This document shows, piece by piece, positions 1 through 41,001 of a DNA stretch of 64,000 bases. Position 1 is the stretch's first letter, and every line of letters begins with the position of its first letter. The notes below the pieces were generated by a model. It was not told the DNA's origin and did no database searches. It worked only from the letters and a program-made list of their open reading frames with translations. The position numbers and the translations under genes were made by a program. The DNA comes from an uncultured Spirochaetota bacterium (GTDB taxonomy: Bacteria > Spirochaetota > Spirochaetia > Treponematales > Rectinemataceae), in NCBI GenBank assembly GCA_903821875.1, contig CAIJMU010000057.1:1-64000 (forward strand), read 5' to 3'.

Positions 1-490
1 CGGCCTGGCCGGAGGCGGGCTTTTCACCAGCTTCATCGCTGCCACGCCCACGATCATCGTGTGCTGCCGCCGGAGCAGCGGCCGGAGCTGCGGTTGATCC
101 ATGCTCTTCAGATGCTCCGGCTTTGGCGCTGGGAGCGTCGTCGCTGCGAGCCGAAGGTTCGGCTTGGCCAGAGGCAGATTTGTCACCAGCTTCGCCGCTG
201 CCACGCCCACGATCCTCGTGTGCTGCCATCGGAGCGGCGGTTGATCCATGCTCATCGGATGCTCCGGCATTGGCGCTGGGGGCGTCGTCGCTTCGAGCTA
301 CGGGCTCGGCCTGGCTAGTGGCGGGCATTTCACCAGCTTCATCGCTGCCACGCCCACGATCCTCGTGTGCTGCCGCCGGAACAGCAGCCGGAGCGGCGGT
401 TGATCCATGCTCATCCGAAGCGCCGGCTTTGGCGCTGGGAGCGTCGTCGCTGCGAGCTACAGGCTCGGCCTGGCCAGAGACGTTCTTGCC
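1..490 (-). repeat. Coding tandem repeat, units of 159 and 147 bp
   Basis: Units start at 1, 160, 307 and 466 on the plus strand, so periods are 159, 147 and 159 bases (53, 49 and 53 residues). The 12-base difference is the loss of a four-residue Ala/Pro block. Copies are nearly identical, and the array continues beyond the left edge. Confidence 0.85.
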
Positions 491-1573
491 ACCCGCTTCG
501 TCGTCGCCCTTCCTGAGGGTGGCGGGGTTGTCTGAATCTACCGTGCCTGGGTCATTGCCGTGCCCACGATCCTCGTTTATAGAGGCCTGAGGAACGAAGA
601 TAAGCGGCTCGCCTGAACCAGGTGGCACTCCAAATGCAGCTGGCTCGCTTGAAGCTTGCGCTTCAAAGGAAGCTGGTGCCTCACCTGCAGTCGACGATTC
701 ACTTGCAGTCGACGGCTCTCGCGAGACAGGCACTTCGAAAGGTGCTGGCGACGCGCCTGATATCGGCTGAGCACTTGCCGTCGGTGGTTCCTTCGGAGTC
801 GGCGGCTCAGCAGTATCAGGCAGCACGCTGACAGCAGAAGGCTCTCTTGAGGCCGCAGGTTCTCTGGATGTAGGAGGCTCGCTTGTGTCGGCTGGTACAG
901 TGTCAGAAGGCTGATCCTGTGTCGTCGCTGTCTTGACTGGTGCTGCTGGTGCCAAGGGCTCTTTCGGGGTCGAATCAGCCGCTGCTGTTCGCATGTGGGT
1001 CGCCTGCGCAAACAATCCAGTCGGCACATGGCTCACCCTCGCCAAGGCTACCGGGATCAAGTCTGGTACCGGTGTTGGAGGTATCCCTCCTATGGACTCA
1101 GGAAGCGGTGCAGAGGAGGTGGCTCTCGCCTCAAAGCCGGGGCTCGTCGACGGAAAAGCTACAGGAGTTTCTCCGGCATGAGACATCTGCCTGATATCCG
1201 GAGCCCAGGACGAAGGCTCTATAGAACCAATTGCTTCGAGTGGCCTGCCTGGCGCAAGTCCCTGTGGTGCCCACACCGCTCCTGCACGCCCGGAATCGCC
1301 ATCAGTCGCCTGGTCCCTGTGCCTGAAGGAGAATTCGGAGCCTGCTGCGAGTTCCTCGTTCCGGCTTGCCAGGAGTTCGGCGGCCAGCTTCGCCTTCCGT
1401 TCGCTCTCCCGTGGGCCGGCCAGAGAGCCCGAATCGTGGATGCCTTCGAGGCTCATCGGCTTCGCGTGCTCAAGGGCGGAAAGGTCCACCTTGTCGGTCG
1501 AAGCCGCTTTTCCAGAGACGCCGGTGGCTTTGGCGGCAATGTCTTTTTTGTCAACGGTGGCCTCATCGCTCAT
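1..1573 (-). CDS. Large repetitive low-complexity protein, N-terminal part (probable type I secretion cargo), cut by window edge
   Basis: The minus-strand frame starting ATG at 1573 is open for 524 codons to the window edge, so the 3' part is missing. A GGGGG ribosome site lies 5 bases before the ATG. The first 200 residues or so are charged and Ala/Ser-rich, then the chain becomes Pro/Ala/Glu/Ser-rich and, below position 490, consists of tandem 49-53 residue repeats with the core AEPVARSDDAPSAKAGAS. No signal peptide and no membrane segment are visible, which fits export without N-terminal cleavage. It lies 27 bases after hlyD in the same direction and closes the secretion operon as far as visible, so I infer it is the cargo, perhaps a giant adhesin. 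Calcium-binding RTX nonapeptides or a C-terminal signal would lie outside the window. I do not recognise the family. Confidence 0.7.
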   Translation of the reverse strand, partial: MSDEATVDKKDIAAKATGVSGKAASTDKVDLSALEHAKPMSLEGIHDSGSLAGPRESERKAKLAAELLASRNEELAAGSEFSFRHRDQATDGDSGRAGAVWAPQGLAPGRPLEAIGSIEPSSWAPDIRQMSHAGETPVAFPSTSPGFEARATSSAPLPESIGGIPPTPVPDLIPVALARVSHVPTGLFAQATHMRTAAADSTPKEPLAPAAPVKTATTQDQPSDTVPADTSEPPTSREPAASREPSAVSVLPDTAEPPTPKEPPTASAQPISGASPAPFEVPVSREPSTASESSTAGEAPASFEAQASSEPAAFGVPPGSGEPLIFVPQASINEDRGHGNDPGTVDSDNPATLRKGDDEAGGKNVSGQAEPVARSDDAPSAKAGASDEHGSTAAPAAVPAAAHEDRGRGSDEAGEMPATSQAEPVARSDDAPSANAGASDEHGSTAAPMAAHEDRGRGSGEAGDKSASGQAEPSARSDDAPSAKAGASEEHGSTAAPAAAPAAAHDDRGRGSDEAGEKPASGQA

Positions 1574-1600: not shown

Positions 1601-2920
1601 TCATCGTTCCCGGAATGCTTCCTGTGCCGAAGCGAAGATGGGTTTCAGGATGTATTGCATTATCGTCCGTTCGCCCGTCACGATTTCTGCGGTCAGGACC
1701 ATGCCGGGGATCAAGACAAGGGGCTCGGCCTTGGCAAGTTCGCGTCCTTCTACCGTCGCGATCGAGCGGTAGTAGGGAGCGCCATCGTTTCCGGTCAAGG
1801 TTGATGCCGAAACCTCGCTGATCCTTCCCTTGAAACCGCCGAAGCGGTCGAAGGGATAGGCCGAGATCTTGAGCCTCACACGCAGGCCCGGCTGGATGGC
1901 CCCGATGTCTTTCGGTGATACGCGGATCTCGGCCCGGTAGCCCTTTTCCTTCGGAACGATGGAGGCGATGGTTGTACCGGATCTCACAACCTCCCCCTTG
2001 CCCGCCACTGCGAGTCCGAGGATGTAGCCATCGATGGGCGACCGCAGCTCAAGGGAACCGGCGCCATGCAGGAGATTCTTCTCCGTCTCATCGAGCTGGG
2101 CGAGGCGGACGTTGACGGCTGCGAGCTCATCAGAATAGCGATTGACCTGTTCGGCATGGTACTCCGTTCTTCGTGCATCGATTTCCGCAAGTTCCTGCAA
2201 GGTTTTCGAGCGAACCGACGGTATGCCCTTCACCTCCGCTTCGATGTTCGCCACTTCCCGCTCCACGGCTATGACCTGCGTCCTCGGCATGGTGCCTCGC
2301 TCTGCCAGGCTGCTGCGGATGGCGAGGTCTTCCTTGGCCAGCGTGAGTTGACGACCGGCTGCCGCGGTACGCGCATCGAGAGAGTCTAATTCCGATCTTT
2401 TCTGGGCAGCCTGGATCCTGAGGATCGTTTCCTTGGATGTAGTCGCCTGGAGCTCGGATTCATAGAGGCGTTTCTGGTCAGCCACAGCCAGGGATATTTC
2501 TCCCAATTGCGAGAAGTTGGCTCGCTTGCCGCTGAGCAGTGCGTTCAGCTTGATGCGCTGGGACTGGAGTGATATGCGTTCGGTCCGGCTTTGGGCAAGG
2601 GCCGTGTTGGTATCGACAGGGTCGAAGACCAGGAGGATGTCACCCGAGCTGACCTCCGAACCCTCCCGCACGAGGACCTGGGCTACGACTCCGCCGGTCG
2701 GATGCTGGACCCGTGCAGCCTCCACGTTGCCGCCGATCAGGCCCGGAGCCTGTGCAACCTCTTCTACGACCGCGAAGGAAGCCCAGATCAGGAAAAGGAT
2801 GACAGCGAGAATTCCGAAGGCTATCGCCAAGCCAGCCAGCGGCGGAGATTCGAGCTCGTTGAGAAGCGTCGATCTCTCAAGGAGCGAACGCTGGCTTCCC
2901 TCCCTTCGTCCAGGTTTCAT
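1601..2920 (-). CDS. HlyD-family membrane fusion protein of type I secretion system
   Basis: This 439-residue periplasmic adaptor would link the inner-membrane ABC exporter to TolC. It has a short cytoplasmic N-terminus (residues 1-27), one membrane helix (about 28-50), a biotinyl-lipoyl half near 75-100 (HPTGGVVAQVLVREGSEV), a long coiled-coil hairpin (about 105-270), the second lipoyl half (SPIDGYILGLAV, about 290-310) and a C-terminal beta domain ending in the family-typical IPGMVLTAEIVTGERTI. Its ATG overlaps the stop of the upstream ABC gene by four bases, so translation is probably coupled. Length is normal for LapC/HlyD-type adaptors. Confidence 0.93.
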   Translation of the reverse strand: MKPGRREGSQRSLLERSTLLNELESPPLAGLAIAFGILAVILFLIWASFAVVEEVAQAPGLIGGNVEAARVQHPTGGVVAQVLVREGSEVSSGDILLVFDPVDTNTALAQSRTERISLQSQRIKLNALLSGKRANFSQLGEISLAVADQKRLYESELQATTSKETILRIQAAQKRSELDSLDARTAAAGRQLTLAKEDLAIRSSLAERGTMPRTQVIAVEREVANIEAEVKGIPSVRSKTLQELAEIDARRTEYHAEQVNRYSDELAAVNVRLAQLDETEKNLLHGAGSLELRSPIDGYILGLAVAGKGEVVRSGTTIASIVPKEKGYRAEIRVSPKDIGAIQPGLRVRLKISAYPFDRFGGFKGRISEVSASTLTGNDGAPYYRSIATVEGRELAKAEPLVLIPGMVLTAEIVTGERTIMQYILKPIFASAQEAFRER

Positions 2921-4992
2921 GATGCCCGCCTCTTCGCTTCGATTTCGGGGGTCGGTCGATCGACCGTGGTGGCCCTCCCCCCGTCCAGCCTGAGTCCTTC
3001 GTCGGCAAGGGCCGAGAAGAATCCGTCATTCGTCATAAGTATGATGGTATCTCCATCCTCCCGCCGTTGCGTGACGATTGAGGCCACCGCCTCGCGTGAC
3101 GAAGGCGGGATTCCGAGCTCGGGTCCGTCGATGATGAGAGTCGAGGACTTCCGGGAGAAGGCGCGCGCCAGGGTGATAAGGCGGCCGATGTCGTCGGGCA
3201 GGGTATCGACGTCCTTCCGGGAAAGACTCGTCATGAGATCCCAGCCCCTCGTCGCAAGAAGTGCCAGAAGGCCGAGTTCTTCGGCCAGCGCGGTGATTTC
3301 CATGTCCTGGGCCTCCGCTGCTCCCAGCCTGATGTTGCCGAGCACAGTCTCCGGGAATAGCGGCGCCGCTGTCGGCGCGTACGCGAGGCTTTGCCTGAGC
3401 AGCGCGGGATCGATCTGGAGGATATTCTGGCCTCCGAGGGTGATGCGGCCGGATTGCGGACGATACAGTCCCAAGGCGAGCTTGGCGATCGTGGTCTTTC
3501 CCGAGCCGGCGTGTCCGCCTATCGCGAGGATGGAGCCGGACCGTGCGAAGAAATCGATTTCCTGCAAGGCCGGGTAGCCCTCTGAGCCGTACCTGAAAAA
3601 TACCTCGTGGAAGCCAAGGTCCCCTCCCGGCTTGGTGCCGAGCGGACGTGGAGCGAGACTCGGCAGCTCGAGGGGCAGGGACAGGAAGCGCTTGATCTGG
3701 TCAACGCTTTTCGAAACTCCGTCCAGTTGCGTTATTACGACGAATGCAGACCTCGCTGGCTCGAGCACGCGCCAGACCAGAAGCATGGCAGCCACGAGCG
3801 CTTCGGGCCGCGCGCGTTCGGCGAAGACATCCAATATGCCGAAGTAGAGCGTGGCCAGGCCCCCGAGAGAGACAGCGAGGGAGGACAGGGAGGAAATCAT
3901 CCCATTCACCCGCTGGAGTTCGTAGCTTGAAAGCGCTGCAGTCCGCGAGGCGCGGGAGAAGCGCTCGAGCCAGGATCCGCGGGCCGCGCCCGAGAGCTGG
4001 GACTTCGCAGCGACGATCCGGGCGAAGAGATCGTGTCGCTCCCCGTCCTCGCGGGCAAAATTGGCCTGCGCCTTCTTCACGATCGGGTAGAAGAGCGCGG
4101 AGGCCAGCGCAAAGAACAGGAGGGCCAGGAGGGGGGCGATGAGGAGCCGGGGCCCGGCACCCGCCAGCCAGAATATGTTGAGTATGAGGAAGGGGATGTC
4201 GAAGATGGCCGCAAAAGCCGGTCCGCCGATGAAATCAGAGATGGTCTCGAAATCGCGGACACGACGGATCTGGGAATCGAGCGGCGCGGATTCCGTAAAG
4301 GAGGTCTGGAAAGAGAGCAGCCTCCGGAAGATTTCTGCCCCTATGGTCTGGCCGAAGCGGGCGCTCGAATAGTCGAGGAGAGACCCTCGGAGGAAGCGAA
4401 GCCCGGCATCGGCTACCAGGTAGAGCGTGGCTCCGAAGGCGAGCGAGACCACAAATCGCCCCTCGGAGGTGGCAGCCAGCCTTCCGTACATCGCCGTCAT
4501 CAGGAGGGGATAGAGCAACGAGAGGACGCCGAGCGCGATGGAAAATACCGATCCAATTATCAGATATTTCCTGAACCTGCCGGCAACGGACCAGAACCAG
4601 TCCGCTCCAGGCTTTCGCTCGTTTCCCTCATCGAGGGCCTGGAACCGGAAGGCGCGGACCCTTCGGCTTCCGGTTTTCATCCTTCTGTAGCGTGCGCTGC
4701 GGCCGTCGAAGGCGAAAAGGGAATCATCGTTCCTTCTCAGGACAACGAGGAAGTTGCCGTCGCCTTCCGCTATGAGACAGGGAAGGTTTACCTCTCGGAG
4801 GGAGCGGAGGCTCGTTTTCGCGGAACGGTGGCTGAAGCCGAGGGCTGCCATCGCATTCAGCATGTCCGGCAAGGATTTGGCCCTGTCGATTTCCAGACCT
4901 CGAAGGCTGGCCTCCGCGCCGCCACCGGCGCCAAGCGCATCGAGCAGAGGTACGAGGCAAGCCTGGAGGGCCTTGATATCAGGCTCACGCAT
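2917..4992 (-). CDS. Type I secretion ABC half-exporter with C39-like domain; degenerate ATPase motifs
   Basis: This 691-residue protein has a peptidase-like N-terminal domain without a plausible catalytic cysteine (about 1-115), a six-helix exporter domain (about 140-430, with the T1SS-typical RRVRDFETISDFIGG) and a nucleotide-binding domain (about 455-680). Walker A is intact (GGHAGSGKTT, K499). The Q-loop glutamine is replaced (YAPT), the LSGGQ signature is TLPDD (597-601), Walker B keeps D622 but has Gly at 623 where the catalytic Glu belongs, and the switch His is Asn655. It overlaps the hemerythrin gene by 8 bases and hlyD by 4. I infer it pairs with the other half-exporter of the operon. 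It can probably bind ATP, but strong hydrolysis is doubtful. Confidence 0.9.
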   Translation of the reverse strand: MREPDIKALQACLVPLLDALGAGGGAEASLRGLEIDRAKSLPDMLNAMAALGFSHRSAKTSLRSLREVNLPCLIAEGDGNFLVVLRRNDDSLFAFDGRSARYRRMKTGSRRVRAFRFQALDEGNERKPGADWFWSVAGRFRKYLIIGSVFSIALGVLSLLYPLLMTAMYGRLAATSEGRFVVSLAFGATLYLVADAGLRFLRGSLLDYSSARFGQTIGAEIFRRLLSFQTSFTESAPLDSQIRRVRDFETISDFIGGPAFAAIFDIPFLILNIFWLAGAGPRLLIAPLLALLFFALASALFYPIVKKAQANFAREDGERHDLFARIVAAKSQLSGAARGSWLERFSRASRTAALSSYELQRVNGMISSLSSLAVSLGGLATLYFGILDVFAERARPEALVAAMLLVWRVLEPARSAFVVITQLDGVSKSVDQIKRFLSLPLELPSLAPRPLGTKPGGDLGFHEVFFRYGSEGYPALQEIDFFARSGSILAIGGHAGSGKTTIAKLALGLYRPQSGRITLGGQNILQIDPALLRQSLAYAPTAAPLFPETVLGNIRLGAAEAQDMEITALAEELGLLALLATRGWDLMTSLSRKDVDTLPDDIGRLITLARAFSRKSSTLIIDGPELGIPPSSREAVASIVTQRREDGDTIILMTNDGFFSALADEGLRLDGGRATTVDRPTPEIEAKRRAS

Positions 4993-6343
4993 TGACCACC
5001 CCTTCCTTTCCGACCGCGGATCCGAAGGTCTCGATATCCGTGCCGTTGGTATGAGTCACCCACCATGCAGCGAGCTTGTTGCGCAGGCCGGAGCTGACGT
5101 CGAGGCGGCCCCCGGAGGCATCGGCCCTCAGCTCGGCGAAGGCCAAGGCAAGATTCCTGTGTTCCTCCCTGTGCCGCATGATGAGACGGGGCGCAATGCC
5201 GGAATCAGCCAGGCGAAGGATGGAATCCTCCCGCTCGAAATGTTCTTTTGCGAAGCCTGCAAGGCCTTCGATCGCCTTTTCGAGCGTGAGTGCCTCGCTT
5301 TGCGCCTTCCGCCCCGACGCGCCGGTGGCAGCCAGGGTCCTGAAGGAAAGATCGATGAAGTGCTGATGGTCTTCGTCGATGGCCGCTATGCCTGTCTTTC
5401 GTATGAGGTGATAGAGTTCGGAGGATTCGCGGGCGGCTTCCATTGCCGTAGCAATCCAGTTGCCCCTCCTGAAGCTGTCATAGTCCACCTGGCCGATGTG
5501 CACGGTGAGCCAGCAGAGGAGCTCCAGCGCCACGCCCTTGAGTCCCTGGCCTCCACTGACCTCACCTTCCTTTTCACAGGAGTTCATCGTCCGGTCGAGG
5601 GTGGCCACAAACTCCTTGTGCAGCTTGCGCTGAAGGGCGGTGTTCTTCGCAGCATGGAGATCGAGCAACTCTTCCTCGTGGGCGAAATGCCGGGTGGTGG
5701 AATCCCGGAGCGCGATGAGGGAGGGAAGACAATCTCCAGGCTTCCCTTCCCTGAGGTCGTGTGCGGCCGCAATGATGTCTTCTACGATCTGGCGGTGCTC
5801 GAGGTCGAGCTCGTCGATGCCCGTGGTACGCACGATGTCCGCAAGGTCGTTCCAGCTGCGGGCTTCCGCCAGGGAAGGAGCGAGCCCCTTGATCTCGAAG
5901 GTCTCACGGTCGGATTCCGCGATATGGTCGACAATCCAGGCGAAGATGGAGCCCCGCAGGTCGGTGGGCACCGAGGTCCTGCCCGCGGCGAACTCGGCCG
6001 AGAACCGCTGGAGGTCTCCAACGATGCGTCTATGCTCCCTTCGCTGCCGCTCGAGTCCCGGGGCGTGGAGGCGCTCCACCAGAACTTCCTCACGATCAAA
6101 ATGGTAGACTGTGTAGCTCATCAGTTGCTCGATGAGCCCCGCCTGTGCCTCAAGCATCCCCTCATCGATGCCCTTGAGGGCCGAAGCGTCCAATTGGAGG
6201 TTAAGGTCGATGGCGTAGCGAAGGAGGACACGATGGTCCGAATCGACGGCATCGATGCCCGTGTCGAGCAGTATGGCGTCAAGATCACGCTCGCTTCGGG
6301 CAGCGAGCAGCGCCCATCGTATCCACGCTCCTTCGTCCATCAT
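4985..6343 (-). CDS. Triple-domain hemerythrin encoded inside the type I secretion operon
   Basis: This 452-residue soluble protein contains three bacteriohemerythrin domains. Domain 1 has H37, H81, E85, H104, H140 and D145 but Gln100 where the HxxxH pair needs its first His. Domain 2 has H183, H219, E223, H242, H282 and D287 but Gln238 at the same position. Domain 3 has the complete seven-ligand set (H326, H368, E372, H391, H395, H431, D436). Hemerythrin domains bind O2 at a di-iron centre, so domain 3 should bind O2 and the others may be structural or altered. The ATG at 6343 overlaps the stop of the upstream ABC gene (ATGATGA) and follows GAGG; longer in-frame starts lie inside that gene. 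There is no signal peptide or output domain. Position in the operon suggests O2 sensing or delivery linked to secretion, which is inference. Confidence 0.92.
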   Translation of the reverse strand: MMDEGAWIRWALLAARSERDLDAILLDTGIDAVDSDHRVLLRYAIDLNLQLDASALKGIDEGMLEAQAGLIEQLMSYTVYHFDREEVLVERLHAPGLERQRREHRRIVGDLQRFSAEFAAGRTSVPTDLRGSIFAWIVDHIAESDRETFEIKGLAPSLAEARSWNDLADIVRTTGIDELDLEHRQIVEDIIAAAHDLREGKPGDCLPSLIALRDSTTRHFAHEEELLDLHAAKNTALQRKLHKEFVATLDRTMNSCEKEGEVSGGQGLKGVALELLCWLTVHIGQVDYDSFRRGNWIATAMEAARESSELYHLIRKTGIAAIDEDHQHFIDLSFRTLAATGASGRKAQSEALTLEKAIEGLAGFAKEHFEREDSILRLADSGIAPRLIMRHREEHRNLALAFAELRADASGGRLDVSSGLRNKLAAWWVTHTNGTDIETFGSAVGKEGVVNA

Positions 6344-8064
6344 GTACCCGCCACCTCGAGCATCGGCCTGAGGGCCTCCCTGACGACGATCCTTCCCTCG
6401 AAGGGCTCTCCGACCTTGCCGCAAATTCCCACGAATTCCTTTCGTCGTGATGCGACAACAAGGGTTGTACCCTCCGAAAGCCTTCCGAGCAGGTCCAGGA
6501 CCGCCCTTCGTCCTTCCTCGTCGAGGCCCGCGTCGGCACGGTTCCACACGAGGAGCCTGGGCCGCCTCGCGATAGACCGGGCGATGCAGAGGCGCTGGAC
6601 GAGGGCGGCGGGCAGGAGCTCGGCACGGGGGTCGAGCGGGGTGTCATAGCCCCGCGGGAGCCTCGCGATCGGCTTTTCGAGGCCCAGTAGTGCAGCTGCG
6701 TCCAGGGCAGAGTCCCGGAGCGCCGGATTGAATCCTGTCAGGTTATCGAGGACGGTTCCCGGCAGGAGTTCCCCCTTCGGAGGCACATAGGCGATAACGC
6801 CATTGCTGCTCGACTCCCAGCGGTCGAGTGGATAGACATCGAGGATGACGCTGCCTGAATCCGGGCGCCTGAGACCGGCCGCGACAAAGCAGAGGCCCGA
6901 GGCCCAGCCCTGACCATCGTCGAGCAGCCCGAGGGAGTCTCCGGGACGAAGGACAAAGCTTGTAGGGCCGAAGCCATCGGGAGTCCCGGCCCGCGATGCC
7001 ACCTCCGCAAACTCGAGCCTGCTTTCAAGGGCAGTGGGCAGGGGCGGCCTGGCCTTTACCTCCGGGCCTGCGATTCCCAGGGCCTTCAGCGCATGTTCTG
7101 TCGCAATGCCGGTTTCGGCGCGCTGGTAGGCGATCCTCACGAAGCCCTGGGCCGAGCCCATGGCGCGCGAGGCGAGCAGAAGCACGGTGGAGAGGGCTCC
7201 GACCGTGAGCGCACCGCGGGCAACCGCCGAGGCACCAAGGGCCAGGACGGCGAAACCCATGGCCGCGGAAATAAAGCGCTGGAACTCGGCGGTGACCCGG
7301 ACCCCGCGTCTGGCGGAATACGCCGCATCGGCCTGGACAGATTGGGTTCGCTCGAAGCGCATGGCCAGAATGGGTTCGAGGGCCTGGGCCTTGACGAATC
7401 CGATGTTTCCGAGCGAGCGCGATATCTCCTCGATCCTCTCCTGCTCGATTGCCGAAAGCCTGCGATGCTTTTCCGCAGAGCGCGAGACCTCGAAAGCAGA
7501 CACAATGAGCTGTATCAGTACGCCTGCGACGGGAATCAGGGCGAGCGGCCCTCCGATGAGCCAGAGCACAGCGAGGTAGAGCAGTGCGAAGGGTGATTCG
7601 GCCAGTGCCGGCAAGGCCTGGGCGATCATGGACGCAACAATCCGTCCCGCCCCCAGCCTCTCGAGGTGCTCCCCTGGACCTATGTCAGCCACCGTCTCGC
7701 CTTCGGCTGACAGCAGTGCAGTGACAGCCTTGATCTCGTAGGTCGAGGACACGCGGGCGACTGCCCAGGCGGAGATTCTTCCCCTCGCCACCGAGACCAG
7801 GGCTTCAATGCACAGGGCCAGGGCACAGCCGCCGAAAAGCCAGACCAGGGTCGATGTGGAACGGTAGGCTACGATACGGTCATAGACCTGGACCATGGAA
7901 AGGGGCAGGGCGAGGCCGAGCACACCGATGGCGAGGGAAGCCAGGGCTATGCCCCTGGTCGTCGCAGGCGCGATCGCGGCTGATATCTCCTTGCCCATAA
8001 GCCGAAGGAGGGGTTTCGCGCCCACGAGCGTGATCGCAGTGCGGAGAAAGGGGCGGTATTTCAT
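6340..8064 (-). CDS. Type I secretion ABC half-exporter with fully degenerate nucleotide-binding domain
   Basis: This 574-residue exporter-fold protein has membrane helices at about 35-310 and an NBD-like domain at about 345-560. Every ATPase motif is lost: the Walker A Lys aligns with Ala388 (DDGQGWASG), the Q-loop Gln with Pro429, the signature reads LLPAA (483-487), Walker B reads LLVWNR (Asn508, Arg509 in place of Asp-Glu) and the switch His is Ser539. The reading frame is otherwise clean and tightly packed with its neighbours (ATGA-type overlaps at both ends), so it looks like a maintained pseudo-ATPase rather than a decaying gene. It lacks the C39-like N-terminal domain found in its partner. 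Likely role: non-hydrolytic half of a heterodimeric T1SS exporter. Confidence 0.88.
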   Translation of the reverse strand: MKYRPFLRTAITLVGAKPLLRLMGKEISAAIAPATTRGIALASLAIGVLGLALPLSMVQVYDRIVAYRSTSTLVWLFGGCALALCIEALVSVARGRISAWAVARVSSTYEIKAVTALLSAEGETVADIGPGEHLERLGAGRIVASMIAQALPALAESPFALLYLAVLWLIGGPLALIPVAGVLIQLIVSAFEVSRSAEKHRRLSAIEQERIEEISRSLGNIGFVKAQALEPILAMRFERTQSVQADAAYSARRGVRVTAEFQRFISAAMGFAVLALGASAVARGALTVGALSTVLLLASRAMGSAQGFVRIAYQRAETGIATEHALKALGIAGPEVKARPPLPTALESRLEFAEVASRAGTPDGFGPTSFVLRPGDSLGLLDDGQGWASGLCFVAAGLRRPDSGSVILDVYPLDRWESSSNGVIAYVPPKGELLPGTVLDNLTGFNPALRDSALDAAALLGLEKPIARLPRGYDTPLDPRAELLPAALVQRLCIARSIARRPRLLVWNRADAGLDEEGRRAVLDLLGRLSEGTTLVVASRRKEFVGICGKVGEPFEGRIVVREALRPMLEVAGT

Positions 8065-9317
8065 GGGCTCCCCGGGATCGATCCTGGCGGAAAGCCGCTC
8101 TGCCGGAGAAGGACGATCCTGGTGCGGGCAGCCTGGGCCTCCGCTGAAAGAAGGGCCAGGTCGCGGCCCATGAGGGCCGAGCGCGCATCGAGAACCTCGG
8201 CTATCGCGGAAGCTCCGGCTTTGAAGGAAGCTTCAACTGCCGCAAGATAGGCTGCCGCGTCATCGCGGGCGTCGCGGAACCGTGCGACGCGGACTTCGGC
8301 TTGCCCGGCATCCACCGCGGCCCTCTCGGCTTCGCGCTTCTTTTCTCCCAGCTCGCTGGCGTTTCGAATGCGCGCAGCCTCGAACCCGGCCTTTGCTGCC
8401 TCCAAGGCGCCAGGGTTGTTCAGGGCGAGGGTGAGATTTCCTCCTGCAGAGATTCCGAGGGGCGGGGTCGCAAAGGGACTGAGGCTGGCAGAAAGCGAAA
8501 CTCCGGCTGTCATCGAAAATGCCGCGCCTGCCCTGTCGAGCGATGCCTGGGCAAGGGCCGCTTCAGCCGCAGCGCTCGCGGCCCAGGGGCCTGGATCAGA
8601 TGGTCCGGAGGCGGCAAGAACGAGGTCCGCGAAACCAGTTGTGGGTACAAGCTGCCTGCCGAGGAGGGCCATCACGATCCCTTCCTTACGGGCCAGATCG
8701 GAGCTGCTGTCTTCGAGCCCGATCTGGGCCGCTGAGAGCGGCTGTTTCGCGGCGAGCACGGCGATGGAGCTTCCCGCACCTGCCTTGCGATCCGATTCGG
8801 CATTCCTCACCAGCTCCTGGAAGGTTGCGACTCCCCGGGCCTCGATTTCCATGCGCCGCCGCGCCTCGACAAGGTCGAGGCAGGATTGGAGGAAGAAGGC
8901 GACCCTATCGAGTTCGGTCAGAGCCAGCCGCGCCTCTGCCCTCCTCTCTTCAGCCGTGGACAGGGCTGCCTTTGATCCGTCGGGAAAACCCAGGGATCCC
9001 GCGACCGAAACCCCGATGGAGCTGCCCTGGAGCAGTGCGGTCGCATCACCGAAGCCGTAGCTTCCACTCGCACCCGTGGCAGTCGCCGAGAGAGCCGGAG
9101 TCGAGGCAGCTGCCAGTCCCAGCCGACCCGAAAGTAGGGTCGAGGCCAACTCCGCGCGGGCCGCTGCGATCCCCGAATCACGCGAGAGGAACTCCGAAAC
9201 GAGGCTCCGTGCCGACTCCTCGGCCATGCCGCGCGTCAGCGCTGCGAAACCCAGGAAAACGCAGGCGAGGGTTCTGGCTCGCAGGGAGAAATCCGGAATT
9301 GCTCTCATGGTCATCAT
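8061..9317 (-). CDS. TolC-family outer membrane factor of the type I secretion system
   Basis: About 418 residues. It starts with a signal peptide (RTLACVFLGFAALTRGMAEE) followed by two related halves rich in long Ala/Leu/Glu helices, as in TolC-type channel-tunnel proteins (for example AAAYLAAVEASFKAGASAIAEVLDARSALM near the end). The frame extends upstream to 9476, but that part is not protein-like. ATG codons at 9317, 9314 and 9308 are the sensible starts; none has a strong ribosome site. It is first in the operon, and its stop overlaps the next ABC gene by four bases. Expected role: outer-membrane exit duct for the cargo at the end of the operon. Confidence 0.85.
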   Translation of the reverse strand: MMTMRAIPDFSLRARTLACVFLGFAALTRGMAEESARSLVSEFLSRDSGIAAARAELASTLLSGRLGLAAASTPALSATATGASGSYGFGDATALLQGSSIGVSVAGSLGFPDGSKAALSTAEERRAEARLALTELDRVAFFLQSCLDLVEARRRMEIEARGVATFQELVRNAESDRKAGAGSSIAVLAAKQPLSAAQIGLEDSSSDLARKEGIVMALLGRQLVPTTGFADLVLAASGPSDPGPWAASAAAEAALAQASLDRAGAAFSMTAGVSLSASLSPFATPPLGISAGGNLTLALNNPGALEAAKAGFEAARIRNASELGEKKREAERAAVDAGQAEVRVARFRDARDDAAAYLAAVEASFKAGASAIAEVLDARSALMGRDLALLSAEAQAARTRIVLLRQSGFPPGSIPGSP

Positions 9318-9499
9318 TTTCAGGTGTAAGCGATGCTGCCGGACCATGCAAGGCAAAAATTTGATTCCATAGGAATGCCCGCCCTCGATTGGTGGGCAGC
9401 ACCCCAGCATGGAGACGACCAGACACTCCCGGCGCGGCAGCCGGTGGTGGCGCGGGGCAGCGTGCTGTCTTGACAATTAAACGTGATGTTCCTTGAGGC

Positions 9500-9562: not shown

Positions 9563-10849
9563 CTAGGACGCCTTCTTCGCCTCGCCCTTTTTCACGCCCA
9601 GCATGAAACCGAGGGCAACGAGCATGCAGAAGGGGGCAATTAGCATGATGTTGTTGTAATTGCCATTGGTCAGCTGGATGATCAGGCCGTTGAGGTTGGG
9701 GCCGACAATGTTCGAGAGGGTCGAAAAGAGGTAGTACAGGCCCGTGAAGGTGCCGATCTTCGCCGGTACGGTGAGGTCGACGATCATCGGGAGGGAGTTG
9801 ATGTTGATGCAGGACCAGCCGAAGCCCGCGATCATGAGGAGGGCGCCGGCGATGGTGAGCATGCGAGGGCCTCCTGCTTCGAGGGGGATACCGATGAGGG
9901 GCAGTTTCGAAAGGGGCGACAGGAGGCTGGCGACGGGCAGGAAATACATTACAAAGAGCACGGCTGCCATCGTTATGAGGCCGATGGAGATCGTGGTCTT
10001 CCTCCCGATGCGGGACGCGATGATGCCCGAGGGAATGGCAAAGAGGATAAAGACCAGGGGCATGCTGGACAGGAGGGTCGCCCCGTCGCCTGCAGGAATG
10101 CCCAGGCGTTTTACTGCCCAGAGGGTGAAGAAGGCGTCTACCGCAGCGTAGCCGATAAACCAGAAAAAGATCGCCATGAAGATCCGGGGGCCGCTCTTTT
10201 CCTTGGAGGCAAAAACCTCGCGGAGGCTGGCAAGCATTTTCGGCGCAGGCTCGGAGGCTCCATCGGCTGCGCCGAGCTTCGGCTCCCTGATGAACAGGAG
10301 GACCAGGCCAGCTGAGATCACCACGAGGGCAGAGCCGAGCCAGAAGGGGAAGTTAGGATTCAACTTGTAGAGGAGGCCGCCGGTCTGAAGGGCCACGATC
10401 ATGCCGACGCCACCCATGAAGTTGACTATGCCGTTGGCCTGGGATCGCTTGTCGGAGGGAGTGAGGTCGGGCATGAGGGCCACGACGGGCGTGCGCCAGA
10501 GGGCCATGGTGAGGATCATGCTGCTGGTGCAGGCAACGAAGAGGGGGAGGAGCGCCTGCATGGGGATGAGGCCGAAGGCTAAGGCGGACAGGGGCGCTCC
10601 GACAAGGATAAAGGGCATACGCCGTCCAATCCGCGTCCTGATCCTGTCAGACCAGGCGCCGACGGGTGGCTGGATAAAGAGGGCTGCGATGTTGTCGAGG
10701 GTCATGAAAAAACCGATCAGGGCTGGGGAAAGATTGAAGCGATCGGCCAGGAATATCGGGACGAAGGCGTTGTAGACCCCCCAGAGTACGGAAACACCGA
10801 AAAAGCCGAAGCCCAGAAGAAAAATCCTGCCGTAACTGAAAGCCTTCAT
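9563..10849 (-). CDS. MFS transporter, sugar-carrier-like (GPH/SLC45 type)
   Basis: About 428 residues with 12 predicted membrane segments. The loop WSDRIRTRIGRRMPFILVG resembles the conserved 2-3 loop of glycoside and sucrose carriers (GPH/SLC45-like), so a cation-coupled sugar or glycoside permease is the best guess; substrate unknown. The start was set at ATG 10849, preceded by GGGGAG, because the 26 upstream codons are hydrophilic and overlap the previous gene. It follows the glycerophosphodiesterase gene by 25 bases, so the two are probably co-transcribed. Confidence 0.85.
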   Translation of the reverse strand: MKAFSYGRIFLLGFGFFGVSVLWGVYNAFVPIFLADRFNLSPALIGFFMTLDNIAALFIQPPVGAWSDRIRTRIGRRMPFILVGAPLSALAFGLIPMQALLPLFVACTSSMILTMALWRTPVVALMPDLTPSDKRSQANGIVNFMGGVGMIVALQTGGLLYKLNPNFPFWLGSALVVISAGLVLLFIREPKLGAADGASEPAPKMLASLREVFASKEKSGPRIFMAIFFWFIGYAAVDAFFTLWAVKRLGIPAGDGATLLSSMPLVFILFAIPSGIIASRIGRKTTISIGLITMAAVLFVMYFLPVASLLSPLSKLPLIGIPLEAGGPRMLTIAGALLMIAGFGWSCININSLPMIVDLTVPAKIGTFTGLYYLFSTLSNIVGPNLNGLIIQLTNGNYNNIMLIAPFCMLVALGFMLGVKKGEAKKAS

Positions 10850-10874
10850 GCTGCCTGCTCCCCAACGGCCTCGC

Positions 10875-11648
10875 TTAGCGGCCGATCGGCGAGTGTAAAC
10901 CCGGAGGGTCCCCTCTGGAAGCCTCATTCTGGAGCTTTCGCGCGATCCCGAGCCCGATGTCGGGACGGTCGGTGATGACCGAGTGCACTCCCGAGGCCAG
11001 GAGACGCTCGATCATCGCCGGATCGTTCACCGTCCATACAAAGACTGGCATGCCGATACGCCGCATCCTGGCCAGGAATCCCAGGAGAAGGAGCTGGTAA
11101 TTCGGGGCGACGAAGTCAGAGCGGCAGCGGCGCAGCCTGAATCCCGGGAAGAGCTCAACGAGGCGGCGGAGGATGCCCTCCTTGGGCTTGTCGAGGCCCA
11201 GGAGGAGGCCCGTAACGATGCGCGGCTCGATGCGCTTGACCGCGATGATGACCCGATCAAGGAAGGACGTCATGACAAAGCCGCCGACTTCGAGGTGCTT
11301 CATGGCCAGCGCCACAATTTCCCCCTCGTAGCCGGCTTCCTTGAGCTCGATGTCGAGGAAAATCCGTCCCCGCGCCATGGAGAAGATCTCTTCGATGGTC
11401 GGGACGGCAAAACCACGACCGGCCGCGATGGCCTGCAACTCTCCGAAGCTGAGATCGGCTATTTTCTCTCCCCCGACTGCCTCGTCATGGAAGCTCACCA
11501 GGACGCCGTCCCTGGTGCGGCGAACATCGAATTCCATGGCGTCGGCACCTATCTCGATGGCCTTCTCGAAGGCCTCGATGGTGTTCTCGAAGCTGACGAG
11601 GGCCGAGGCGCCCCTGTGCGCAATGATCGCAGCCTGCTTAAGTTCCAT
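10875..11648 (-). CDS. Glycerophosphodiester phosphodiesterase
   Basis: This 257-residue GDPD-family TIM barrel should hydrolyse glycerophosphodiesters to sn-glycerol 3-phosphate and an alcohol. The family motifs are present: AHRGAS (9-15) with SFENT, the metal-binding MEFDV, SFHDE with the second catalytic His, LDIELK, and the C-terminal VWTVNDP...GVHSVITDRPD. There is no signal peptide, so it is cytoplasmic (UgpQ-like). It probably forms an operon with the MFS carrier downstream, suggesting import and breakdown of a glycerol-containing compound (inference). Confidence 0.93.
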   Translation of the reverse strand: MELKQAAIIAHRGASALVSFENTIEAFEKAIEIGADAMEFDVRRTRDGVLVSFHDEAVGGEKIADLSFGELQAIAAGRGFAVPTIEEIFSMARGRIFLDIELKEAGYEGEIVALAMKHLEVGGFVMTSFLDRVIIAVKRIEPRIVTGLLLGLDKPKEGILRRLVELFPGFRLRRCRSDFVAPNYQLLLLGFLARMRRIGMPVFVWTVNDPAMIERLLASGVHSVITDRPDIGLGIARKLQNEASRGDPPGLHSPIGR

Positions 11649-36991: not shown

Positions 36992-39115
36992 CTACTTGCA
37001 CTCCTCGACCGCCGGTCCCGCGAACTGGGATTCGTGGAGCTCCGCATAGAAGCCGCACTTCGCGATCAGCTCTTCGTGCGTGCCCTGCTCCACGATCGAG
37101 CCCGAGTCCATGACAAGTATGAGTTCCGCGTCGCGGATTGTCGACAGCCTGTGGGCGATCACGAAGCTCGTCCGTCCCTCCATCAGTGTGGTCATGGCCT
37201 TCCTGATGAGGACCTCGGTGCGCGTATCCACCGAGCTCGTAGCCTCGTCGAGGATGAGGATGGCTGGGTCGGCCAGGATGGCCCTCGCGATCGTGAGGAG
37301 CTGGCGCTGGCCCTGGGAGATGTTGCCTGCCTCCTCGTCGAGGACCGTGTCATAGCCCAGGGGAAGGGCACGGATGAAGTGGTCGGCGTAGGCTGCCTTG
37401 GCAGCGCTGTGGATATCCTTTTCGGTCGCGCCTTCGCGGCCGTAGGCAATGTTGTCGCGGATGGTGCCGGTGAAGAGCCAGGTGTCCTGGAGCACCATGC
37501 CGAAGAGACCCCGGAGGCCACGCCGCGGCATCTCGCGGATATCCCTGCCGTCGATCAGGACCGCGCCGGCATCGATTTCACGGAAGCGCATGAGGAGGTT
37601 GACCAGGGTGGTCTTGCCCGCTCCCGTGGGACCGACGATGGCGATCATGTGGCCCGGGCGGGCATCGAGGGACAGGCCCTCGATGAGTGGCTTGTCGGCC
37701 ACGTAGCGGAAGGACAGGCCCTCCACCCTGACATGGCCGGACACCGGCGAAGGAAGCGCCGCCCCTGGCCTGTCAGAGGCCTCCTCCGCCTCATCGAGGA
37801 CCTCGAAGACGCGCTCGGCACAGGCCAGGGTCGACTGGATCACGTTGGCGATGTTCGCTGTCTGGGCGATGGGCTGGGCGAAGGAGCGCGAGTACTGGAT
37901 GAAGGCGGTGATGCCTCCAATTGTGAGCTTTCCCTTGGTGAGCCACAGGCCGCCCACGACCGATATGAGCACATAGCCGAGGTTGCCTATGAAGTTCATG
38001 AGGGGGAACATCACCCCCGATATGAACTGGGCGCGCGACGAAGCGCTCCGGAGACGATCGTTGATGTCCCTGAACTTCTGGAGCGATCGCCTTTCGAGGC
38101 TGTAGGCCCGCACGATGGCGTGGCCCGAGTACATCTCCTCGATGTGGCCGGACAGGTCCCCGAGCTCCTTCTGCTGCTCCTTGAAGTATTTCTGCGAGCG
38201 CTTGGCAATAAGGACGGTGGCGACGACGTAGAGCGGGAGCGTCGCCAGCACGATGGCGGTGAGGAGGGGGCTGATCGTCAGCATCATGATGATGAAGCCC
38301 ACGAGCTGGATGACCGAGGTGATGGCCTGCACGATGCTCTGCTGGAGGGTCGTCGAGATGGTGTCGATGTCGTTGGTCACGCGCGACAGGAGGTCGCCGT
38401 GGGGCCGGCTGTCGAGGTAGGCCAGGGGGAGGCGGTCGATCTTGGACTGGGCCTCGCGCCTGAGCTTCGAGACCGTGTCCTGGGCGACCGTGGACATCAC
38501 CCACTGGGTAATGAACATGAAGACCGAGGACAGGGCGTAGAGGGCAAGGAGGAAAAGGAGTATGGAACCAATTGCTGCATAATCGATCCTGCCGCCGGTC
38601 TCGCGTATCGCACGCACCGCATCGGCCATCTGCTCGGGGGTGAAACCGGGCTTTGCCCCGGGAGCCGCGGGCATCTTCCCGGACAGGGCGGCGAGCTTCT
38701 CCACGATGGCGGCGCGCTCGTTGTCGTCCCTGGCCTCGGCCAGGGGCGTGATCCCGAGCTGCGACAGCGTGGGGCCAGCCTTCTCGGAGAGCTTTCCGAT
38801 GCGGTCGAGGGTCATGCGGGCGATGAAGGCGTCCTTGAGCTTGTCCATGGCATGGCCCTGGATCTTGGGCGACACGACCTGGAAGGACATCGAGGCTATG
38901 GCCAGGAGGACGACAGCCACAAGGCGCGGCGCGTGGGGACGGAGGTAGCCCAGGAGGCGTTTGAACGTCGCGCCGAAATCCTTGGGCTTCTGCCCGCCAG
39001 CGCCCATGTGCCCCATGGGGCCGCCAAATCCGGGACCGCCACCATCACGACGCGCCCCGGGTCCCACGACCGGGCCGGGGGATCCGGAGGAACGCTTCGA
39101 ACTGTTGTCGCTCAC
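36992..39115 (-). CDS. Heterodimeric ABC exporter subunit, catalytically competent half (TM288-like)
   Basis: 707 residues: a Gly/Pro-rich cytoplasmic N-terminus (1-45), exporter membrane domain (about 60-400) and NBD (about 450-690) with Walker A GPTGAGKTT, signature ISQGQRQ, Walker B LILDEATSSVD and switch His IAHRLS. Between the first two helices is an extracytoplasmic insertion of about 90 residues (100-185) not present in standard MsbA-type exporters. It overlaps its partner gene by four bases. Probably a multidrug or lipid exporter of the TM287/288 kind. Confidence 0.92.
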   Translation of the reverse strand: MSDNSSKRSSGSPGPVVGPGARRDGGGPGFGGPMGHMGAGGQKPKDFGATFKRLLGYLRPHAPRLVAVVLLAIASMSFQVVSPKIQGHAMDKLKDAFIARMTLDRIGKLSEKAGPTLSQLGITPLAEARDDNERAAIVEKLAALSGKMPAAPGAKPGFTPEQMADAVRAIRETGGRIDYAAIGSILLFLLALYALSSVFMFITQWVMSTVAQDTVSKLRREAQSKIDRLPLAYLDSRPHGDLLSRVTNDIDTISTTLQQSIVQAITSVIQLVGFIIMMLTISPLLTAIVLATLPLYVVATVLIAKRSQKYFKEQQKELGDLSGHIEEMYSGHAIVRAYSLERRSLQKFRDINDRLRSASSRAQFISGVMFPLMNFIGNLGYVLISVVGGLWLTKGKLTIGGITAFIQYSRSFAQPIAQTANIANVIQSTLACAERVFEVLDEAEEASDRPGAALPSPVSGHVRVEGLSFRYVADKPLIEGLSLDARPGHMIAIVGPTGAGKTTLVNLLMRFREIDAGAVLIDGRDIREMPRRGLRGLFGMVLQDTWLFTGTIRDNIAYGREGATEKDIHSAAKAAYADHFIRALPLGYDTVLDEEAGNISQGQRQLLTIARAILADPAILILDEATSSVDTRTEVLIRKAMTTLMEGRTSFVIAHRLSTIRDAELILVMDSGSIVEQGTHEELIAKCGFYAELHESQFAGPAVEECK

Positions 39116-40842
39116 GCCAGCCTCTCTTCCGACAGCTGCGAGGCGGCTATCTCATGGTACACGGGACAGGAGGCAAGGAGCTCGCGATGCGTACCTGTCC
39201 CCACGATCTGGCCATCCTCCATCACGATGATTCGATCGGCATCCATGACCGTTCCCACGCGCTGGGCTACCACGATGACGGTCGCCTTTCCCGTCACCTC
39301 CTTCAACCGCGCGCGGAGCCGCGAGTCGGTGCGGAAGTCGAGGGCCGAGAAGCAGTCGTCGAAGAGGTAGATTTCCGGTTTCCGGGCGATGGCCCGGGCG
39401 ATGGAGAGGCGCTGTTTCTGTCCACCGGAGAGGTCGAGACCGCCCTGGGCTACCTCGTGCTCATAGCCGCCCTCGATGGTATCGATGAACTCTGTGGCCT
39501 GGGCGATCTCCGAGGCCTTCCGCACGGCGTCCTGGTCGACACCCTCGGTGCCGAGGCGGACATTGTCAGCGATGGACATCGAAAAGAGGATGGGCTTCTG
39601 CGGAACGTAGCCGATGCGGGCGCGGAGCCCGTCCTGGGCCATCTCCCGGACGTCGATGCCGTCCACGAGGACCTGCCCCGAGTCAGCGTCATAGAAACGG
39701 GCGACGAGCTTGGCTATCGTCGACTTGCCCGAACCGGTGGAACCGATTATGGCCGTCACCTCCCCGGGCGCGGCCCGGAAGGAGACACCCTCGATGGCTG
39801 CCTGCTCCGCACCGTGGTAGCGGAAGGTCACATTCCGGAACTCTACGGTCGCCCGGTCGGCCGCCCCAGGGGCCTTCGGCACCGCGGGATCGGAGATGGT
39901 CGGCTCCGTGCCGAGGACCTCGTCGATGCGGACAGCCGCAGCCTGGGCCCTCGGCACCATGATGAACATCATGGCGAACATCATGAAGGACATGAGGATC
40001 ATGAAGGAGTACTGGATGAAGGCCATGAGGGAGCCTATCTCCATCTCGCCCGAGTCGATGCGGATGATGCCGAACCAGAGCAGGGCAAGGCTCGCCGCGC
40101 TCATGATGAACATGATCGAGGGCATCATGACGGCCATGAGCCGGTTGACCTTGATGTAGGTGCTGGTGAGCTCGGCGTTGGCCTCCTCGAAGCGCTGGCG
40201 CTCCCGATCCTCGCGGTTGAAGGCGCGGACGACGCGGACACCCGTGAGGGCCTCGCGGAGGACGAGGTTGATGCGGTCGATCTTGCCCTGGATCGAGCGG
40301 AAGAGGGGCAGGGCCTTCATAAAGACCACTCCGATGAGGATGCCGAGCACCGGTATGACCGCCGCGAGGACCCAGGTGAGGGAGCGGTCCTTGGATAGTG
40401 CCATCACCAGTCCACCGACAGCCATGATCGGCGCGCCGACCATCATGCGGAGGGCCATGAGGGTTACCGTCTGGACCTGTGTGACGTCGTTGGTGCTCCG
40501 CGTGATGAGGGTGGAGGCACCAAAGCGGTCGAACTCGTCGAGGGAGAAGGATTCGACTCGTCCAAAGATCGCTTCGCGGATGGCAGCCCCGAAACCCGCA
40601 CTCGCCTTTGATCCGAGCCAGCTTGCCAGGATGGCGGAAAGGATCGAGGCCCCGGTGACGAGGAGCATCAGGGCTCCCGTCGACAGGATGCGGGTTGTGT
40701 CCCCGTTCATCACGCCCTTGTCGATGATGTCGGCCATCAGCGTCGGCAGGTAGAGGTCTGCGATGGTCTGCCCGAAAACGAGGAGGAGAACGAGGATTAT
40801 TTCAGTTTTCCAGGGCGCCAGGAAACGCGCCAGTTTGAGCAT
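39112..40842 (-). CDS. Heterodimeric ABC exporter subunit with degenerate site (TM287-like)
   Basis: About 576 residues: six-helix exporter domain and NBD with Walker A GSTGSGKST and signature LSGGQKQ, but Walker B reads YLFDDCFSALD with Asp instead of the catalytic Glu, and the switch position is VAQRVG (Gln for His). This is the expected degenerate partner in TM287/288-type heterodimers. ATG 40842 has AAAGGA upstream; the 28 codons before it are not conserved in style. First gene of a four-gene ABC run down to 34910. Confidence 0.92.
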   Translation of the reverse strand: MLKLARFLAPWKTEIILVLLLVFGQTIADLYLPTLMADIIDKGVMNGDTTRILSTGALMLLVTGASILSAILASWLGSKASAGFGAAIREAIFGRVESFSLDEFDRFGASTLITRSTNDVTQVQTVTLMALRMMVGAPIMAVGGLVMALSKDRSLTWVLAAVIPVLGILIGVVFMKALPLFRSIQGKIDRINLVLREALTGVRVVRAFNREDRERQRFEEANAELTSTYIKVNRLMAVMMPSIMFIMSAASLALLWFGIIRIDSGEMEIGSLMAFIQYSFMILMSFMMFAMMFIMVPRAQAAAVRIDEVLGTEPTISDPAVPKAPGAADRATVEFRNVTFRYHGAEQAAIEGVSFRAAPGEVTAIIGSTGSGKSTIAKLVARFYDADSGQVLVDGIDVREMAQDGLRARIGYVPQKPILFSMSIADNVRLGTEGVDQDAVRKASEIAQATEFIDTIEGGYEHEVAQGGLDLSGGQKQRLSIARAIARKPEIYLFDDCFSALDFRTDSRLRARLKEVTGKATVIVVAQRVGTVMDADRIIVMEDGQIVGTGTHRELLASCPVYHEIAASQLSEERLA

Positions 40843-41001
40843 GGAAGGTCCTTTCGCCCAGGTCAGGGCGCGATGGATCCGTCCGGAATCGAGTGCCGCC
40901 CTGCGAGCCCGTGATGCGGATGTCACAGTGCATGATCCGGGCCGGAAGGGTCAAGCTTTGGACCTTGCGCAGGAATGAAGGAAGGTCATAATGGAGCCAT
41001 G

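Follow-up and report, generated by a model that had tools for sequence, protein, structure and literature searches.

Our analyses identify, in the window (the whole stretch of 64,000 nucleotides analysed here, from an uncultured Spirochaetota bacterium), a conserved type I secretion (T1SS) operon in which neither ATP site of the ABC exporter is catalytically complete by sequence, against the expectation of one working site. To our knowledge, it is held that an ABC exporter cannot do without at least one functional ATP site. The explanation that we prefer, giving it somewhat less than an even chance as a whole, is a hemerythrin-gated T1SS with a stepwise disarmed ABC motor, driven without an ATP hydrolysis cycle. 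The operon makes two ideas testable, namely type I secretion without ATP hydrolysis and the use of an O2-binding protein as an exporter subunit.

The cluster lies on the minus strand in the order tolC, ABC1, triple hemerythrin, ABC2, hlyD and a repeat-rich ORF:

8061..9476, minus strand: TolC-type outer-membrane efflux protein (Pfam OEP, E=3e-14), the first gene of the cluster
6340..8064, minus strand: ABC1, half-exporter with transmembrane (TMD) and nucleotide-binding (NBD) domains and without an N-terminal domain, 574 aa (ABC_membrane, E=1.9e-16)
4985..6343, minus strand: three-domain hemerythrin protein, 452 aa from the ATG at 6343 (Pfam Hemerythrin, E=1.7e-29, three stretches)
2917..4992, minus strand: ABC2, half-exporter with an N-terminal C39-like domain (CLD), 691 aa (TIGR03375 LssB, 256 bits, residues 8-673)
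1601..2920, minus strand: HlyD-family type I secretion adaptor, 439 aa (TIGR01843, 316 bits, cut-off 208.65)
2..1573, minus strand: probable secreted substrate, N-terminal module followed by repeats, incomplete (TRF period 159 over 1-479)

Base 1 of the window is base 1 of contig C57, and the repeat-rich ORF runs off the contig start. An earlier sequence-only reading of this DNA had described intact frames overlapping tolC, the hemerythrin gene and hlyD, and overlaps of 4-8 bp are indeed read: the tolC/ABC1, ABC1/hemerythrin and ABC2/hlyD pairs each share ATGA (4 bp), the hemerythrin start at 6343 being set from this overlap, and hemerythrin and ABC2 share 8 bp. The true start of tolC is probably inside its ORF, and the spirochaete genome G541 carries a TolC-like gene at the same place. 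A scan for sigma-70 promoters found none.

Of the features of a T1SS, the operon has a HlyD-type adaptor (TIGR01843), a TolC-type channel (OEP) and an ABC exporter with TMD and NBD. Pfam ABC_membrane scores above its cut-off in both ABC proteins and ABC_tran only in ABC2, ABC1 reaching 20 bits, under the cut-off. The combination of TolC, HlyD and an ABC exporter with a C39-like domain is common to the window and to the LssB/LapB and HlyB/PrtD systems (TIGR03375, TIGR01846, TIGR01842, TIGR01843); unlike these, the window has two different ABC subunits, with a CLD in one only, both scoring under the curated NCBIfam cut-offs (ABC2 256 of 693 bits for TIGR03375 LssB; ABC1 180 of 510 bits for TIGR01842 PrtD), catalytic residues that have been lost, and a hemerythrin gene in the operon. 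Two different ABC proteins, RtxB and RtxE, both required for export, also serve the MARTX T1SS in the portion of PMC3034196 available; the likeness is one of description, and that portion describes no hemerythrin for MARTX, in contrast to the window operon. Elsewhere in the window (36995-40950, minus strand) lies a second, ordinary-looking ABC exporter pair, with Walker A in both members and LSGGQ in one.

In ABC1, the Walker A Lys is replaced by Ala388, the Q-loop Gln by Pro429 and the Walker B Asp-Glu by Asn508-Arg509, and the signature, from residue 483, reads LLPAA. In ABC2, Walker A (GHAGSGKTT) is intact with Lys499 and the Walker B Asp622 is kept, while the catalytic Glu has become Gly623, the switch His Asn655 and the signature TLPDD. 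Every residue checked in the two half-exporters was found where the sequence-only reading had placed it, and to its list of losses is added the ABC2 Q-loop Gln, replaced by Thr541. For the ABC1 switch His that reading had named Ser539; the family alignment assigns the His column to the adjoining Arg540, and on either placement the His is missing. Both NBDs are degenerate, which leaves the pair without the one fully canonical site of a one-consensus, one-degenerate heterodimer, and no ATP site combines Lys, Gln, Glu, His and the trans signature; the earlier claim that neither composite site has both a signature and a catalytic base holds. Judged from these motifs, the pair would be unable to run a textbook ATP cycle and the window T1SS would lack even one competent site, although ABC2 probably still binds Mg-nucleotide via Lys499 and Asp622. 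The NBD fold is retained in AF2 models (pLDDT mostly 80-90), the overall pTM being modest (0.46, 0.59). The modelled NBD of ABC1 (pLDDT about 80-90) has PDB fold matches to TM287/288, HlyB, TmrAB and PrtD, and the best PDB match of the ABC2 model is HlyB (8dck_A, TM 0.81).

No close orthologue of the window system was found in its genus or family in the sets searched, and across the 294 genomes of its order no HlyD but its own exceeds the TIGR01843 cut-off. The phylum search returned G541, with five genes in the window's order and degenerate NBDs, and the class search returned three more spirochaetes: G1022 (L258), with the same five-gene order and degenerate NBDs, and G952 (L259) and G932 (L260), in which parts are shown as far as contigs or context allow. 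A scan of genome contigs with the single ABC2 sequence gave no match; an alignment-based scan was needed, and it retrieved relatives in Magnetococcales, Humidesulfovibrio and Rhodospirillales, while order-wide searches gave many more, those of Desulfovibrionales on complete chromosomes. Against plasmids, tblastn found a single Azospirillum chain of ~1,370 aa as the best match for both ABC1 and ABC2, a fusion of the two. These relatives make up one family of bipartite type I secretion exporters, in which systems on complete chromosomes and in metagenome-derived genomes are graded from two sites that are intact except for the signature, through one dead site, to both dead.

Several members depart from the common arrangement. 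Magnetococcales loci L183, L186, L187, L189 and L193 encode fused ABC1-ABC2 chains with a different HlyD gene on either side, and Magnetococcales genomes G576, G577, G579, G580, G581 and G604 carry a hemerythrin system together with an intact no-hemerythrin paralogue (only the ABC2 of which was read in G579). In Desulfovibrionales, L241 (G752, 4777-8003) is without the hemerythrin gene, the CLD of ABC2 and part of the ABC1 NBD, a copy that is probably decaying. In L243 (G821, 4660-6902), the coding sequence of ABC2 is divided between two frames that overlap, through a frameshift, an assembly error or a programmed shift.

Motif counts were made leaving out partial copies and without down-weighting related genomes. 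In systems without hemerythrin, ABC1 has the Walker A Lys in 52/52 copies with letters and Asp-Glu in 53/53, and ABC2 has Lys in 56/56, Asp-Glu in 56/56 and the switch His in 53/56. The non-spirochaete hemerythrin clade, counted together with L241, which has lost its hemerythrin gene, has an ABC1 with neither Lys nor catalytic Glu in any of 22 copies (the Glu position holding Lys in 14, Arg in 7 and Gln in 1) and with no His; its ABC2 keeps Lys and Asp-Glu in all 19 copies and has lost His in 18 of 19, a single copy retaining it. Among four spirochaete copies of ABC1, Glu is found in none, Asp in one, His in none and Lys in two, both in P-loops without the usual glycines. Spirochaete ABC2 (five copies) has Lys in 4/5, Asp in 5/5, Glu in 1/5, Gln in 0/5 and His in 0/5, the single catalytic Glu being that of L259, with loss in the window, G541 and two others.

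The signatures LLPAA and TLPDD, which the sequence-only reading had counted among the oddities, are real; however, non-canonical signatures in both NBDs run through the whole family, catalytically intact systems included, so signature loss alone is not diagnostic and was dropped as the defining feature. Pro stands in place of the ABC1 signature Ser in all 53 no-hemerythrin copies, and the second Gly is present in 75/75 non-spirochaete copies and 0/4 spirochaete ones. The actual oddity is the loss of Lys, Glu, Gln and His. Read from the distribution rather than from a rooted reconstruction, the order of events appears to be odd signatures with intact catalysis, then loss of site 1, then loss of site 2 in spirochaetes.

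In TM287/288, TmrAB, BmrCD and TAP, all heterodimeric ABC exporters, one site is degenerate; they consist of asymmetric half-exporters of the same fold as the window pair. The hemerythrin-associated members of Magnetococcales and Desulfovibrionales fit this TM287/288-type pattern, with one dead site. The spirochaetes differ from it, in that the catalytic Glu of the second site is also lost in the window and three other spirochaete systems, and all five have lost both the Q-loop Gln and the switch His from ABC2.

In a tree from ABC2 columns outside the NBD, the hemerythrin systems group together as a single clade (support 100/99), within which L241 also falls in a 60-row quick tree. Resolution is poorer in the ABC1 tree, where the spirochaete branches are very long. 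A single spirochaete clade, as opposed to two origins, was not rejected by AU tests (p 0.39 with five systems; p 0.26 and 0.14 with the pair). Canonical relatives, which would have pointed to decay of the window copy, have Lys and Asp-Glu intact only outside the hemerythrin clade, and recurrence of the motif losses is seen across spirochaete families, with a dead ABC1 also in Desulfovibrionales and Magnetococcales. The impression that the operon is selected is strengthened by the same kinds of loss in open frames in other spirochaete families: G541, L258 and L260 show them in both ABC genes, and L259, whose contig does not include ABC1, shows them in ABC2. For the dead ABC1 NBD, dN/dS in four pairs from Desulfovibrionales and Magnetococcales, all non-spirochaete, is 0.07-0.18 (0.111/1.411, 0.021/0.310, 0.130/0.706 and 0.128/0.853), compared with 0.075/1.337 = 0.06 in an intact no-hemerythrin pair, these being rough estimates with some dS >1. 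Purifying selection acts on the dead ABC1 domains of the non-spirochaete pairs. For the spirochaetes, in which a close pair is lacking, the argument for selection is drawn from intact overlapping ORFs and losses recurring across families, which indicate that the losses in the window are conserved and are not decay.

The second constant of the clade is the hemerythrin. All three domains of the window protein show the ligand pattern of five His, one Glu and one Asp, and the gene adjoins ABC2, between both ABC genes where the contig holds both, in 4/5 spirochaete loci. At the exporter locus hemerythrins also occur in Magnetococcales, with 3-4 domains, and in Desulfovibrionales, with one domain or with about 450 aa in L244 and L245; in Humidesulfovibrio the hemerythrin forms the C-terminal part of the ABC1 chain, a fusion which makes physical coupling to NBD1 plausible. 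A hemerythrin in the N-terminal extension of the Rhodospirillales ABC2 was considered and ruled out, the extension being a Pro-rich linker in which Pfam finds no domain. Both the positional conservation and the stepwise series of losses go beyond the sequence-only reading. The correlation of hemerythrin with the death of ABC1 is perfect in our sample except for L241, and it belongs to one clade, hence perhaps to one event. The di-iron ligand columns are kept in most hemerythrin domains, L242 being without one ligand. In L260 (about 9900-11060), a 394 aa protein with no Pfam match holds the hemerythrin position between ABC2 and ABC1, and by eye its ligand residues seem largely missing. Because of these two cases, di-iron sensing is not universal in the clade. 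Like the hemerythrin domains known as bacterial O2 or redox sensors (PMC9388753), the operon proteins have the di-iron ligand set, and they differ in being tied to a secretion exporter, once by fusion to an NBD. No paper linking hemerythrin to a T1SS was found in the open-access literature, outside which most subscription journals lie.

We propose that TolC, HlyD and an ABC1/ABC2 heterodimer would form a tripartite T1SS whose motor was disarmed stepwise: the ATP site of ABC1 would have died in the ancestor of the hemerythrin clade, after which the catalytic base, the Q-loop Gln and the switch His would have disappeared in spirochaetes from the one site left, that of ABC2. The NBD pair would be kept as a structural and regulatory dimer, on which the hemerythrin would dock; its di-iron centres would, according to their O2 or redox state, alter NBD closure and gate the conduit. 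Transport would proceed without an ATP hydrolysis cycle, driven for instance by the proton-motive force together with folding of the substrate outside; export by HlyB depends on the proton-motive force as well as on ATP (PMC3034196). The most likely role of a conserved dead NBD pair beside a di-iron protein would be regulation, nucleotide binding and/or O2 or redox gating. That this exporter lineage abandoned ATP hydrolysis altogether, becoming an O2- or redox-gated conduit with the hemerythrin controlling the NBD dimer and export by proton-motive force or extracellular folding, is a stronger claim, conceivable and rather doubtful. Residual ATP use may be compatible with the window, in which Lys499 and Asp622 survive.

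The main rival is a conventional but very slow ATPase, possible though improbable, which would hold Mg-ATP via Lys499 and Asp622, activate water through another residue or with substrate assistance, and suffice for the rare export of a giant adhesin. The Lys and Asp of spirochaete ABC2 (4/5 and 5/5) and the Glu of L259 agree with it, as does the one potentially active site left by the Lys and Glu of ABC2 in Magnetococcales and Desulfovibrionales. However, Gln, Glu and His are all three missing from the ABC2 of the window and of G541, and ABC1 contributes a trans signature (LLPAA, LPSN) without Ser and the second Gly, a Gly found in every non-spirochaete ABC1 scored. Moreover, a review (PMC7756269) regards function as blocked once a canonical site loses its Walker B Glu.

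SUR and CFTR are ABC proteins that act as regulator or channel in other processes. An ABC pair serving likewise as a regulator or channel subunit, controlling export through another, intact exporter, is unlikely here: Magnetococcales with the hemerythrin system do carry an intact paralogue, but no second T1SS HlyD or CLD-type ABC was found in the window genome, and the operon retains its own tolC, hlyD and substrate-like gene. Still less probable is a third ATPase, encoded elsewhere, that powers the conduit. The window genome encodes numerous NBD proteins as well as further ABC exporters, yet none of them is linked to the operon or has T1SS features, and no conserved third NBD gene lies beside the operons in the relatives read; the ordinary exporter pair upstream of tolC in G1022 is not common to the others. 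The third T1SS ABC gene that the sequence-only reading had suggested was not recovered in the window's own genome, where no further HlyD exceeds the TIGR01843 threshold and no additional ABC protein aligns with the LssB model through its N-terminal domain. That the copies are decaying genes or products of misassembly is scarcely credible: some Desulfovibrionales copies look damaged (L241, without hemerythrin and CLD; L243, with ABC2 split) and the window branches are long, but five overlapping ORFs are intact, the same losses occur in independent assemblies and families, and the dead NBDs of the clade are under purifying selection.

As regards neighbouring exporters, an ordinary ABC pair stands immediately upstream of the tolC of the degenerate operon in L258 (983-4551, G1022).

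On the proposed reading of a hemerythrin-gated T1SS, the window system most likely exports a large repetitive, adhesin-like protein encoded just downstream. The 2-1573 ORF has an N-terminal module and then Ala/Pro/Ser/Glu-rich repeats of a 53-aa type, and the gene after hlyD in spirochaetes L258, L259 and L260 likewise has a short module and then repeats. In Magnetococcales, Desulfovibrionales and Humidesulfovibrio, the neighbour gene begins with a common module (ELDELTVLQ..DLSAEEQ) and, in those read beyond it, continues into low-complexity repeats. An N-terminal profile ranked the window ORF first of 574 window ORFs (E=0.07, or 0.53 with spirochaete sequences added), so that its kinship to these substrate-like genes by sequence is only suggestive. 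A low-complexity gene also takes the place of the window ORF in Magnetococcales L079, L080 and L104, and the Azospirillum operon faces a gene for a giant protein with Ig-like domains.
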